Shown here: positions 21,062 through 60,925 of the stretch, piece by piece
Numbering within the stretch: the stretch's first letter is position 1
Layout of the letters: each line of letters begins with the position of its first letter
Assembly: GCA_024403735.1 (NCBI GenBank)
Contig: JAKSRG010000001.1
Span: 1 to 64,000 of the forward strand
Direction: 5' to 3'
Source: Clostridia bacterium
GTDB taxonomy: Bacteria > Bacillota > Clostridia > Saccharofermentanales > Saccharofermentanaceae
DNA length: 64,000 nt
Notes under the pieces: generated by a model
Told to the model about the DNA's origin: nothing
The model's input: the letters and a program-made list of their open reading frames with translations, nothing else
The model's database searches: none
Position numbers and translations under genes: made by a program

Positions 21062-22375
21062 ATGTCTAATAATTATGATGATGATTCAAATGACGTTCTG
21101 AAGTGTTCCTTCTGTGGCAAGTCAGAATATCAGGTTCCACGTCTATTTTCAGGTGTTAATTGCTATATCTGTATTGATTGTATTAACACTGCTCATTCAA
21201 TTATTACTGAGGAAGCTAAACTACAAAAAAAGAAGAAAACACAGAAATCACGCCCTAATAAGCTAATTACTCCACATGCAATCAAGGAAAAGCTTGATGA
21301 ATATGTAATTGGTCAGGATGACGCAAAGATTTCTTTGTCTGTTGCTGTATATAACCACTACAAGAGAGTTTACTACGGTATGGATTATGATGATGGTATC
21401 GAGATTGCTAAGAGTAATATCTTGATGCTTGGTCCTACTGGTTCAGGTAAGACTTATCTTGCTCAGACACTTGCTAGAATTCTTGATGTTCCATTTGCAG
21501 TAGCTGATGCAACAACTCTTACAGAAGCTGGTTACGTAGGTGAAGATGTTGAGAATATCCTTTTGAAACTTATCGTAGCAGCTGATTATGATATTGATCG
21601 AGCTCAGATGGGTATCGTTTATATCGATGAAATTGATAAGATTGCTAAGAAGTCAGAGAATGTTTCTATCACACGTGATGTTAGTGGTGAAGGCGTTCAG
21701 CAGGCACTCCTTAAGATTTTGGAGAGTACTGTTGCTTCAGTTCCTCCTAAGGGTGGACGTAAGCATCCAAATGAAGAATGTATCCAGATTGATACAACAA
21801 ATATTCTCTTTATTTGTGGTGGTGCTTTTGACGGTTTGGAATCAATTATCGCAGATAGAACAAGTAAGAAGCACTATGGTTTTGGTGCACCAGTTTCTTC
21901 TATTAAGGAAGCATATTCTGGTGAGGATTTTGATAAGGTAGTTCCTCAGGATTTGATGAAGTTCGGTATTATTCCTGAATTCCTCGGTCGTGTACCTGTA
22001 ACTGTAGCTCTTGATAAGCTCGATGAAGAAGCTCTTGTTGCTATTCTTATGGAGCCTAAGAATGCTTTGTATAAGCAGTATCGTAAGATGTTCTCTATGG
22101 ATGGTGTAGAACTCGAGTTTACTGACGAGGCTGCTAAGGCAATCGCAAAGAAGGCTATTGAGCAGAAGACTGGTGCGCGTGGTCTTAGAACTATTACTGA
22201 GGCAATCATGCGCAACGTTATGTATGACATTCCTTCAGAGAAGGATGTATTGAAGTGCATTATTGATGAGAGTTGTGTCAACGATTCTAAGGAACCAACT
22301 CTTGTTTATAAGAAAAAAAAGAATTCTCAGTCAGAAGATTCTGATAAGTCTTCAGATGGAGAACTCGGAGCATAA
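21062..22375 (+). CDS. clpX: ATP-dependent Clp protease ATP-binding subunit ClpX
   Basis: AAA+ unfoldase of 437 residues that delivers substrates to ClpP. The N-terminal zinc-binding domain has C15, C18, C34 and C37. Walker A is GPTGSGKT, the pore loop is GYVGED, Walker B is [10 protein letters not shown], and the sensor-2 region GARGLR is intact. The ClpP-docking loop (IGF in most species) reads YGF here (KHYGFGAP). The ATG at 21062 behind GGAGAG is chosen over one at 21050. clpP, usually between tig and clpX, is absent from this locus. It is followed by a ROK kinase gene 17 bases downstream. Confidence 0.97.
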
Positions 22376-56820: not shown

Positions 56821-56908
56821 TAGGTTTGAATAAATTTGTTCGTTTGTGATTATTCTTAGCTTATTTGTTATAAAATATAAACAGTCTGATTATAGATGGG
56901 AGATTTAT

Positions 56909-57856
56909 ATGAAATTAACAAACGAGCAACTAAAAGGTATATATTTTGGCGCCTATTTTTTTGAAGAGACAGCTGATGGTTATTTGAAGGCTAATCAGTA
57001 TTCAAAAGCACAGATGGCTTATTTTGATACAGCACTTGAGATGTGGAAGGAACGATGTGATGCATCAACTGCTAAGACACTCGAGTTTGTTACTGAAGCT
57101 ACAGAAGTTTCCTTTGATTACAAGCTTATCTGGTTTTGTTCAAAAGATTCATTTGACTTATATGTTGATGAAGAACTCGCAGCAATTACAAAACTTGATG
57201 ATATCGGTGAAGAAGGAAAGATTGTTTTCAATATGAAGGCAGGTAAAAAGAAGGTAACTATTTATCTTCCTTGTGATGCTACTGCTATTATCAAGAATTT
57301 TGAGATTAATGATAGTTATGAGACTGTAACTAAAGGACCTAAGGTTCTTTGGCTTGGTGATTCTATTACTCAGGGCTATGGTCCACTTAGATCATCTCAG
57401 TCTTATGTAAGTGTAGCTAATAGAATTCTTGATTACGATATTATCAATCAGGGTATTGGTGGATATGTTTATGACAAGAAGTCTCTTATGAAGATGGAAG
57501 GTTATAATCCAGAAAAGATTATTGTTGCTATGGGAACAAATCAGTACGGTACAGAGTCAATGATAGATATTGAAGAATATTATGAAACATTGACAGGCAT
57601 CTATGGAAATACTCCAATCCTCTGCGTAACTCCACTTTGGAGAGGTGATCATTTGGAGGAGATTGATAAGCTTATAAGATTCTGTGAAGAACTTAAGAAG
57701 ATTGTTGCTAAGTATCCAAATATCCAAGTTGTTGAAGGCTTTAAGCTTGTTCCACACTTTGAAGAATACTTTCTTGATAATCTCCATCCAAATAAGCTTG
57801 GCACAGAAGTTTATGGTAGAAATCTTGTAAGAGAGATTGAAAGATTAGGTTTCTAA
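56909..57856 (+). CDS. SGNH/GDSL-family hydrolase
   Basis: A 315-residue cytosolic enzyme. An N-terminal beta-sandwich (about 1-140) resembles the domain of carbohydrate esterases of the CE2 type, followed by the SGNH fold with block I GDSIT (S152), block II QGIGG, block III GTNQYG, and the D290-x2-H293 pair in LDNLHPN. It is likely a deacetylase of sugar esters. The ATG at 56909 behind GGGAG is chosen. One base separates it from the next gene. Confidence 0.87.
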   Translation: MKLTNEQLKGIYFGAYFFEETADGYLKANQYSKAQMAYFDTALEMWKERCDASTAKTLEFVTEATEVSFDYKLIWFCSKDSFDLYVDEELAAITKLDDIGEEGKIVFNMKAGKKKVTIYLPCDATAIIKNFEINDSYETVTKGPKVLWLGDSITQGYGPLRSSQSYVSVANRILDYDIINQGIGGYVYDKKSLMKMEGYNPEKIIVAMGTNQYGTESMIDIEEYYETLTGIYGNTPILCVTPLWRGDHLEEIDKLIRFCEELKKIVAKYPNIQVVEGFKLVPHFEEYFLDNLHPNKLGTEVYGRNLVREIERLGF

Positions 57857-57857
57857 A

Positions 57858-58172
57858 ATGAAAAAAGTCAAGATTACAGTTATCAGAATGGCTTGTTATA
57901 AAGACCTTATCGAGAAGTACGAAAATCCAATTGAACATGCGTGTGATATGGAAGAAGGTAAAGTCTTTATTGCGAATGGCTGGGAGAAACCCGTTGGTTT
58001 TTGTGATAGTGCTTGGGATACATTATCTCCGTTTGTTATGGCTTTATCTCACGGAGCTGAGAATTTTTATGATGGCTGGATGAAAAATAAGAAATCTGCG
58101 ATGCTCTCATGTAATGATGGTTTTAGGCCTGTAAGCTTTCTGGTTGAAGCTATGGATGAAGATGCTGAATAA
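57858..58172 (+). CDS. TIGR04076 family protein
   Basis: A 104-residue small protein beginning KVKITVIRMACYKDL, with CDMEEGKVFIANGWEKPVGFCDSAWDTL and a conserved Cys/Trp pattern, matching the TIGR04076 family of unknown function. It starts one base after the SGNH gene and is presumably co-translated. Confidence 0.82.
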   Translation: MKKVKITVIRMACYKDLIEKYENPIEHACDMEEGKVFIANGWEKPVGFCDSAWDTLSPFVMALSHGAENFYDGWMKNKKSAMLSCNDGFRPVSFLVEAMDEDAE

Positions 58173-58198
58173 TCTTTGAAATATGTATGAGGTAAACG

Positions 58199-58816
58199 AT
58201 GACTGAACAAGAAAAAATGTTAGCAGGAAAAATATATGACCCATCAGATAAGACGTTAGCAGAACTACGAGCAAAGGGTCATAGATTGTCTAAAATGTAT
58301 AATGATACATTTGATACCGATGAGGAAGAACGAGACAGAATAATTCACGAACTTATTCCTAATATGGGAGAAGGTTGTTATTTGCAAGGTCCTATCTATT
58401 TTGATTATGGATGTTTTACAACATTTGGAAGAGGTTGCTACGCTAACTTCAATCTTACTGTATTAGACACTTGTCCAGTTACTATTGGTGATTCGGTATT
58501 CTTTGGTCCTAATTGTATGATCGCTACTCCAATGCATCCGCTAAGATGGCAGGAAAGAAATATGAAACAAAAGGCTGATGGGACCTGGTACGATGACGAA
58601 TATGGAAAGCCTATTACTATTGGTTCTAATTGTTGGATTGCTAGTAATGTTGTTATTTGTGCCGGTGTATCAATTGGCGAAGGTTGTGTTATTGGAGCTG
58701 GTAGCGTAGTAACAAGGGATATTCCTATGAATTCAGTAGCTGCTGGTAATCCATGTAAAGTGATTAGACAGATAACAGAAGAAGATTCGATTAAATTAAA
58801 GAAAGAATTATGGTAA
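58199..58816 (+). CDS. Sugar O-acetyltransferase (maltose/galactoside acetyltransferase type)
   Basis: A 205-residue left-handed beta-helix enzyme. The N-terminal Mac domain is MTEQEKMLAGKIYDPSD, the catalytic His is H113 in ATPMHPL, and hexapeptide repeats follow (IGSNCWIASNVVICAGVSIGEGCVIGAGSVV). It transfers acetyl groups from acetyl-CoA to sugars. An esterase is encoded two genes upstream, which suggests an acetylation/deacetylation pair (inference). Confidence 0.92.
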   Translation: MTEQEKMLAGKIYDPSDKTLAELRAKGHRLSKMYNDTFDTDEEERDRIIHELIPNMGEGCYLQGPIYFDYGCFTTFGRGCYANFNLTVLDTCPVTIGDSVFFGPNCMIATPMHPLRWQERNMKQKADGTWYDDEYGKPITIGSNCWIASNVVICAGVSIGEGCVIGAGSVVTRDIPMNSVAAGNPCKVIRQITEEDSIKLKKELW

Positions 58817-58850: not shown

Positions 58851-60335
58851 ATGTGGCCATTTGGTAAGAAAAAGAATAAGCAGGAAGAGAATGATAATCC
58901 TACACAGGAGCGTTCAGAAGAGCTTCCAAAGGAACCTATTAAAGCACCTGTTACTGAAATAAAGAAAAGTACTAGTAGTTCTGCATTCTGTATGGGTGTA
59001 GAAGGTAAGTTTTTACTTGGTAAAGAACTTCTTTACGCAGGTACAATAAAGGGAACTGTAAATGTAGGAGATGAAATCTGCATTGTTAATCCTGGTGATT
59101 ATGAAATCTCATTTGATGATGTAATCACTTTTGATACACCAAATGTAGTTAAAGCAAAGATCGCAAAGATTGAAGTTGGTAGTGAAAAATCCAGTGTAGA
59201 AAGCGTTACTGATAGTAAGGCTAGTATTGTTTTCGATGAGGACATGGAGTATTACATTCGAACAGGAACAGTTTTCTGCTCTAGTGGAAGTAAAGGCGAT
59301 ATTATTCGTCAGGCATATTGTGATGGCCTTGGAAATGGTCTTATTGGCTTTGCTCACATGAATGTTTCTGATGGCGTATATGCGCGAATGTCATTAAACG
59401 ATATGGCTGAAGTTGCTAGAATGTTTTTGGGTCTCATATCTAGAGATCCTGCTTTTCAGTCTCCTGAAATGAAAGACGAGATTACTTCCAAAATCGGTAA
59501 ACTCGGAACAAATATGTCTAAATGCATTGTCAATGAGGATGTTATTTATACTCTATATAGCAAGAGAACAGGTGAACCAAAGTTGTTTACTCGCTGTTTT
59601 GATGGTCCAAATAATACGATTAGAATTGATCCACCATTCATTTGCATTTTTACTGAACAGACATATAAAAGTGTTAGTAATGCCTATAAGGATGACACTG
59701 CATATGAATTAAGAAAAATAGAGAATGGCAAGGATAGAAACGGCATTAAGAAATTCTTGGATGCAACATTCTATTTAAATGGTGCAACAGGTCTTTGTGT
59801 TAACTACATTGGTCTAACAATTGCTGCTGGCAATATTATTCCACCTCCAAACTATGATGGTGTACCAGCAATTCAGATTCCTGTAACTAATCCTATGGTT
59901 GAGTCATTGATCCTTCTTGTCGGTCAGTTCGAAAAGGTAGAGACTGAAGCAGAGAAGAAAGAATATAGTGCTTATAGCAATATGATGTTCAGAGAATTGG
60001 CAAAAGCCCGATTTATCGCTCCAATTAAGATTGAAGGAGATGTTGAGCATAAGGATAATATTGAGGCTGTATTCAAAGAGAATACTACGATTTCTTTTGT
60101 TGTAATGGATGGTAAGTATGGTAGACCAGCATTAAAAGTATTTACTGATTGGCAGAAAATGGTTGAGGCAGGCTTTAAGCCAGAAGATGGTTGGTCAGGA
60201 AATGTTATGAGATTAGATCAAATACTTGATGCTCAGGATTGTGTTATCAATGCAACTAGTTCAATGTATCCAACATCTGGTATTTATATTGGTAGAGAGA
60301 TGTTTGATACTCAGATTAAACAGTACATTGAATAA
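58851..60335 (+). CDS. Fusion of an EF-Tu domain 2-like barrel and an SseB-like domain
   Basis: A 494-residue cytosolic protein. A basic/amphipathic N-terminus (MWPFGKKKNK) and a charged linker to about 35 precede a beta-barrel at about 42-120 that matches translation-factor domain 2 (FCMGVEGKFLLGKELLYAGTIKGTVNVGDEICIVNPG). A middle region of unclear fold (about 130-340) is followed by an SseB-type domain at about 345-494 (IPVTNPMVESLILLVGQFEK; FVVMDGKYGRPALKVFTDWQKM). No GTPase motif is present. The next gene is an L7/L12-like protein, 22 bases downstream. Function unknown; a role around ribosome or translation-factor binding is inferred. Confidence 0.75.
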   Translation: MWPFGKKKNKQEENDNPTQERSEELPKEPIKAPVTEIKKSTSSSAFCMGVEGKFLLGKELLYAGTIKGTVNVGDEICIVNPGDYEISFDDVITFDTPNVVKAKIAKIEVGSEKSSVESVTDSKASIVFDEDMEYYIRTGTVFCSSGSKGDIIRQAYCDGLGNGLIGFAHMNVSDGVYARMSLNDMAEVARMFLGLISRDPAFQSPEMKDEITSKIGKLGTNMSKCIVNEDVIYTLYSKRTGEPKLFTRCFDGPNNTIRIDPPFICIFTEQTYKSVSNAYKDDTAYELRKIENGKDRNGIKKFLDATFYLNGATGLCVNYIGLTIAAGNIIPPPNYDGVPAIQIPVTNPMVESLILLVGQFEKVETEAEKKEYSAYSNMMFRELAKARFIAPIKIEGDVEHKDNIEAVFKENTTISFVVMDGKYGRPALKVFTDWQKMVEAGFKPEDGWSGNVMRLDQILDAQDCVINATSSMYPTSGIYIGREMFDTQIKQYIE

Positions 60336-60356
60336 AATGGGTTAGTTGAGGTTGTT

Positions 60357-60794
60357 ATGGGATTTTTCGATTTATTTAGAAAGAAAAAGACAGATGATGA
60401 ACGTGACTTGGAAGAAGCAACAAGAAAGAGTAAGTCTGAACAGATAAGTACTCCTGTTCCTTCTATGTCACTTGAAGATACAAAACAAGTTGTTATTAAG
60501 ATGCTTGCTGAAAATAGTAAGATTCAGGCAATTAAATTTGTTAAAGATAATACTGGTGTTGGTCTTAAAGAAGCAAAGGATTTTGTAGAGAGTATTGAGA
60601 GAACATGTGTAATCGATTATCAGTCTGTTCAGCAACCTCAGAATTCACAGTTCGCTAACTATATTTCTCCTGATTTGGAGCAGAAAGTAAGAAGTCTCTT
60701 AGCACAAGGACAAAAGATGGAGGCTATTAAGCTTGTTAAGGCTTCTACTGATTTAGGATTAAAAGAATGCAAGGAATATGTAGAAAGTCTTTGA
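60357..60794 (+). CDS. Protein with two L7/L12 C-terminal-type domains
   Basis: A 145-residue protein. The amphipathic N-terminus MGFFDLFRKKK could bind membrane. Two copies of a ribosomal protein L7/L12 C-terminal-like motif follow at about 43-81 and 108-145 (KIQAIKFVKDNTGVGLKEAKDFVES; KMEAIKLVKASTDLGLKECKEYVESL), each with the conserved Lys and Gly residues that, in L7/L12, contact translation GTPases. It lacks the L7/L12 dimerization domain. It is the partner of the preceding gene; a terminator follows. Confidence 0.85.
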   Translation: MGFFDLFRKKKTDDERDLEEATRKSKSEQISTPVPSMSLEDTKQVVIKMLAENSKIQAIKFVKDNTGVGLKEAKDFVESIERTCVIDYQSVQQPQNSQFANYISPDLEQKVRSLLAQGQKMEAIKLVKASTDLGLKECKEYVESL

Positions 60795-60881: not shown

Positions 60882-60925
60882 AAAGGTGCTAACTATTCAA
60901 TTTGTTGAATAGTTGGTGCCTTTTT
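60882..60925 (+). terminator. Terminator after the L7/L12-like gene
   Basis: AAAGGTGCTAACTATTCAA pairs with TTGAATAGTTGGTGCCTTT (19 bp, one G-U), then TT and a TGTTTTCGATAA element. Confidence 0.93.

Follow-up and report, generated by a model that had tools for sequence, protein, structure and literature searches.

Helices 4 and 5 of the ribosomal protein L7/L12 bind the GTPase domain of EF-Tu at its helix D (Kothe et al. 2004; Wieden et al. 2001; as cited in the passages of PMC6110070 and PMC4739770 on this contact). SseB has been related by profile comparison to the Tic22 peptide-binding chaperones and is itself a predicted chaperone (PMC9503650). Both are among the closest described relatives of two adjacent genes, A and B, found in the window analyzed here, a 64,000-nucleotide stretch of a Clostridia bacterium of the family Saccharofermentanaceae. 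In the original prediction, made from the sequence alone, both genes were read as carriers of translation-machinery modules, and their products as an interacting pair that senses or sequesters translation factors. The modules are largely borne out by the present analysis and the pairing is not: genes A and B are members of two separate uncharacterized families.

The locus and its transcript

Both open reading frames are intact, lie on the forward strand where the original prediction had placed them, and are separated by 21 bp. The features of the locus are as follows.

56846..57856, + strand: GDSL esterase gene, first of the block upstream of gene A (56846..58816)
57858..58172, + strand: upstream gene for a 104-aa protein, without Pfam match
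58199..58816, + strand: upstream hexapeptide acetyltransferase gene, packed with short gaps
58851..60335, + strand: gene A (494 aa), composed of leader peptide, EF-Tu domain-2 barrel, helical/alpha-beta middle domain and SseB domain
58851..58976, + strand: WPFGKKKNK peptide and disordered linker, residues 1–42 (pLDDT < 50)
58986..59291, + strand: EF-Tu domain-2-like barrel, about residues 46–147 (family profile, Pfam, AlphaFold model, Foldseek)
59295..59870, + strand: conserved middle domain, about residues 149–340, with motifs TGEP and FYLNGA (family alignment, AlphaFold model)
59871..60332, + strand: SseB domain region, residues 341–494, Pfam match 374–437 (Pfam, AlphaFold model)
60357..60794, + strand: gene B, 145 aa (leader peptide and two L7/L12-type, putatively EF-Tu-binding, alpha-hairpins)
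60357..60389, + strand: N-terminal peptide MGFFDLFRKKK of gene B, conserved in two gene-B orthologs
60480..60602, + strand: hairpin unit 1, about residues 42–82 (Pfam, single-sequence model, contact residues)
60669..60791, + strand: hairpin unit 2, about residues 105–145 (Pfam, single-sequence model, contact residues)
60882..60923, + strand: strong terminator-like hairpin of the intrinsic type, 3′ of gene B, with 19 pairs and a T tail

Since the acetyltransferase gene and gene A are only 34 bp apart, the three upstream genes, which are of unrelated types, probably share one transcript with genes A and B, and this transcript appears to end at the hairpin 60882–60923. No functional tie of the upstream genes to A or B is evident. 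Counterparts of the downstream oxidoreductase genes (genome G045) and of the 104-aa gene (G049) lie in other surroundings, where the pair is absent. Arrival of A and B as an inserted cassette was considered and set aside, as these surroundings offer no empty site for comparison.

Gene A: an EF-Tu domain-2 barrel fused to SseB

Four homologs of gene A occur within the order, with 29–30% identity. A profile built from gene A and these relatives, run against the PDB, picks up almost exclusively EF-Tu domain 2, in about 50 different sequences (best E 2.3e-5). With a 29-member family profile, every PDB match below E = 10 is a translation GTPase (best 4.2e-5), which places the barrel closest to EF-Tu itself. 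Pfam GTP_EFTU_D2 is matched individually by eight of the 29 members (best 5.5e-5). The window protein has no such match of its own at E 0.1, so that its assignment is based on the family profile and the structure model. The AlphaFold model (pLDDT 85.7, pTM 0.81) shows strands at 46–143, and its top Foldseek matches in the PDB are EF-Tu chains, with a probability of 1.00 over about 106 columns, a length that fits the barrel in an output giving no residue range. A profile of only the barrel of the family also scores 25.0 bits against EF-Tu domain 2 of the same genome. Judged by profile and by model, the barrel is real and of the EF-Tu domain-2 type. It is also free of a GTPase domain, as originally proposed: Pfam matches no GTPase domain with a P-loop, and the leader, barrel, middle domain and SseB region together take up the protein. 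EF-Tu domain 3 is likewise absent.

Within the family, the window protein forms a long branch, and its barrel contains an 11-residue insertion (59100–59132, about residues 84–94) absent from the other 28 members. A different arrangement occurs at locus L026 (1225–1965, minus strand; contig C2 of genome G409, near 21452–21757), where EF-Tu domains 2 and 3 of a 247-aa frame (Pfam E 9.9e-7 and 6.9e-20, respectively) are preceded by a transmembrane-type segment at the N-terminus. No GTPase domain is found in this frame or in the genes preceding it, and its product is apparently a membrane-anchored GTPase-less EF-Tu.

The proposed fusion to an SseB-like domain is confirmed by Pfam PF07179, which scores 25.9 bits against a curated cut-off of 21 and is the sole match above cut-off for the window protein alone; 28 of the 29 family members match it at E 0.1. 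Beyond the barrel, the 29-row alignment displays strong conservation (TGEP, FYLNGACG, PVTNPDLxRW, TDW and DCxIN). The middle domain has no Pfam match, and its identification as a second SseB copy was rejected, as a profile comparison of residues 149–340 with 341–494 gave nothing. SseB-type relatives in Lachnospiraceae and other groups lack the barrel but possess both SseB and the middle domain, which implies that the barrel was either gained by a pre-existing protein of the SseB type or, conversely, lost. In three of 11 congener loci (L006, L008, L009), an SseB gene adjoins an htpG-type gene bearing the HtpG signature RELLQNAVDA, with a gap of 60 bp in L008; this adjacency is weakly suggestive of a chaperone context.

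The N-terminal peptides of the two proteins, WPFGKKKNK and GFFDLFRKKK, had been noted as possible membrane anchors. Their presence is confirmed, and attachment through them is plausible. A short leader with hydrophobic residues followed by lysines is found by a strict pattern in 20 of the 29 gene-A family members, and in one relative (L005/L051) four hydrophobic helices of transmembrane hydropathy take its place. For these reasons the gene-A leader is predicted to touch the membrane, and likely does; against this, no stretch of the gene-A protein reaches transmembrane hydropathy. The four-helix relative (L005/L051/L067, contig C230 of genome G074) lies beside apparent ABC exporter and HlyD-type genes.

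The barrel-SseB fusion is conserved in about 30 Bacillota proteins, a family so far without a name. A profile scan of one genome per species across 84,980 species returned 38 loci, of which about 29 combine barrel and SseB, in Lachnospiraceae, other Clostridia and Erysipelothrix; a scan of genome contigs with the single gene-A sequence found nothing, an alignment being needed as query. No whole-protein family for gene A exists in Pfam or NCBIfam, and text searches, which cover few subscription papers, returned no paper on a barrel-SseB protein. Outside close relatives, no conserved neighborhood of gene A was found. Phage or plasmid origin was discarded, gene A being unmatched in phages, plasmids and viral contigs.

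Gene B: two L7/L12-type hairpins

Gene B had been described as a duplicated L7/L12 C-terminal domain (CTD). The duplication holds, with two stretches matching PF00542 (E 7.5e-17), but a full domain does not: the best stretch covers positions 2–39 of 67, and the latter half of the CTD fold is missing. What remains corresponds to helices 4 and 5, which form the hairpin. In two orthologs of gene B, coverage stops at positions 37 and 47. The single-sequence model contains two three-helix units and no strands, with block pLDDT of about 78–91 within the units and a pTM of 0.35 that leaves their relative placement undefined; Foldseek gives no match to this model below E 2.

Of the E. coli L7/L12 residues, both copies retain K65, I69, K70 and K84, together with a hydrophobic residue at position 66, while R73 is replaced by lysine, as in the bL12 of the same genome. 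The K65/K70/R73/K84-type residues recur in the four ortholog copies, with R or K at position 73. By alignment, the GTPase-contact residues of gene B are kept or conservatively changed. The ribosomal copy is a different gene, a normal bL12 being encoded elsewhere in the genome (L003). Pfam finds no L7/L12 dimerization domain in gene B, in line with the original description, and the bL12 equivalog TIGR00855 gives 50.4, short of its cut-off of 84.4. It is reasonable to suppose that gene B alone may hold or sense a translation GTPase.

Hairpins of this type occur in further proteins of other genomes. Four non-ribosomal proteins (L079, L080, L083, L077) bear a single hairpin on a transmembrane-type segment; the one at L077 (2780–3568, genome G045) has 263 aa, with segments of strong hydrophobicity at its N-terminus and the L12-type hairpin at its C-terminus. 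A gene-B-like leader precedes the hairpins of L074 and L075 (double) and the hairpin of L076 (single). Within the window's own genome, the hairpin protein at C57/L004 has neither leader nor transmembrane-type segment; at this locus (139–1671), a VWA-domain gene lies near the protein, which ends in a single L12-type hairpin.

Linkage and alternative explanations

According to the pair proposal, the barrel of A contacts the L7/L12-like motifs of B, and the two proteins, located at the membrane, sense translation factors or sequester them. This proposal draws on the 21-bp gap ahead of one terminator, the similarity of the leaders and the presence of translation-machinery modules in both proteins. 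The comparative evidence runs the other way. Among open reading frames in flanks of up to 8 kb (shorter at contig ends), no convincing hairpin gene was found near any of the 29 gene-A relatives (0/29). Full-length gene-B orthologs are present in congeners G047 and G049 (47% and 39% identity by blastp), where they are surrounded by unrelated genes with no gene A beside them (0/2), and neither genome gave a match to gene A; no further full-length gene B was found in 391 class-level genomes. In order-level searches, a double-hairpin protein and gene A co-occur in the window's genome only. This linkage sample comprises two gene-B orthologs and some short contigs, and the genome of one gene-A relative (G074) is 73% complete. 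Mimicry of the ribosomal contact predicts no binding of A to B, since L7/L12 hairpins bind the GTPase domain and A has none. Linkage of A and B is found in the window's genome only, and the two are separate families and not an obligate pair. An interacting pair is accordingly improbable, although the 21-bp adjacency in this one genome could reflect recent functional coupling.

The function of the barrel may also be read in other ways. If, as in EF-Tu, it bound aminoacyl-tRNA by the acceptor end, gene A would be a tRNA- or aminoacyl-handling protein, and part of the EF-Tu pocket framework is indeed kept across the family (F218 in 26 of 29 members, D216 in 23 of 29, plus glycines, mapped on EF-Tu). 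Against this, the columns aligned to EF-Tu N273 and R288, which we take to be contacts to the aminoacyl (amino) group and to the tRNA 5′ end, vary among the 29 members, the window protein having K and T there in a distant alignment whose numbering is shifted by one residue in that stretch. Because these columns are not conserved, a tRNA-binding role is not favored by the sequences and appears very improbable. It is somewhat easier to imagine, though still doubtful, that the barrel has a generic translation-barrel fold and serves as structural spacer or oligomerization module unconnected to translation. Some barrels of the superfamily belong to proteins other than GTPases (Peptidase_U32_C gives a weak score to a related EF-Tu-like protein), and several EF-Tu contact residues are not retained; the family profile, as seen above, retrieves translation GTPases only, which argues against a generic fold.

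A proposed mechanism

The preferred reading, to which we assign a probability of roughly 45%, is that A and B are independent, probably membrane-peripheral accessory proteins, A being a barrel-docked SseB chaperone or adaptor and B a GTPase tether, probably co-transcribed in this genome. It starts from observations: the domain content, the leaders, the truncation of B to the hairpin, the retained contact residues and the lack of linkage elsewhere. Short amphipathic lysine-rich leaders would hold both proteins to the inner face of the membrane. The barrel of A would act as a docking module, its likeliest site being the surface normally met by domain 2 of a translation GTPase, and docking would position the peptide-binding, chaperone-like SseB-type region there. 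Gene B would offer two alpha-hairpins of the L7/L12 (and EF-Ts) type, and so keep EF-Tu or another translational GTPase tethered to the membrane and away from the stalk of the ribosome. A shared transcript is probable in the window's genome, obligate pairing is not.

A broader and rather unlikely extension is that in Bacillota, membrane-attached proteins of the gene-B type hold elongation factors by a bare EF-Tu-binding hairpin, and that the parallel gene-A family brings an SseB chaperone to sites of translation by means of a GTPase-less EF-Tu barrel. If true, translation would thereby be coupled locally to the membrane in a way so far undescribed. Genes A and B open the way to simple tests of whether translation factors are held at bacterial membranes off the ribosome.

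Comparison with known systems

Gene A resembles EF-Tu domain 2 (Pfam GTP_EFTU_D2, PF03144) in the sequence and predicted fold of its barrel. It differs from EF-Tu in the absence of the GTPase domain and of domain 3, in several unconserved tRNA contacts and in the fused SseB domain. With the SseB family (PF07179), it shares a C-terminal region above cut-off, and SseB-only relatives share its middle domain; the barrel-SseB fusion is not described in the literature searched. To our knowledge, E. coli SseB has no EF-Tu barrel.

The likeness of gene B to the bL12 CTD (PF00542) lies in the alpha-hairpin with its GTPase-contact residues, whereas gene B consists of the hairpin alone, in two copies, without dimerization domain or second CTD half and with a membrane-type leader. 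The hairpin also matches the NCBIfam hypothetical protein family PRK06771 (NF005269; E 4.9e-13), against which gene B scores 49.6, under the cut-off of 90 of a 97-position model. By type it is the EF-Tu-binding alpha-hairpin common to L7/L12 and EF-Ts, although gene B has no Pfam match to EF-Ts, whose N-terminal domain is the point of comparison. Known as an ancient peptide within larger domains, this hairpin can, in gene B, stand alone in a membrane-type protein.
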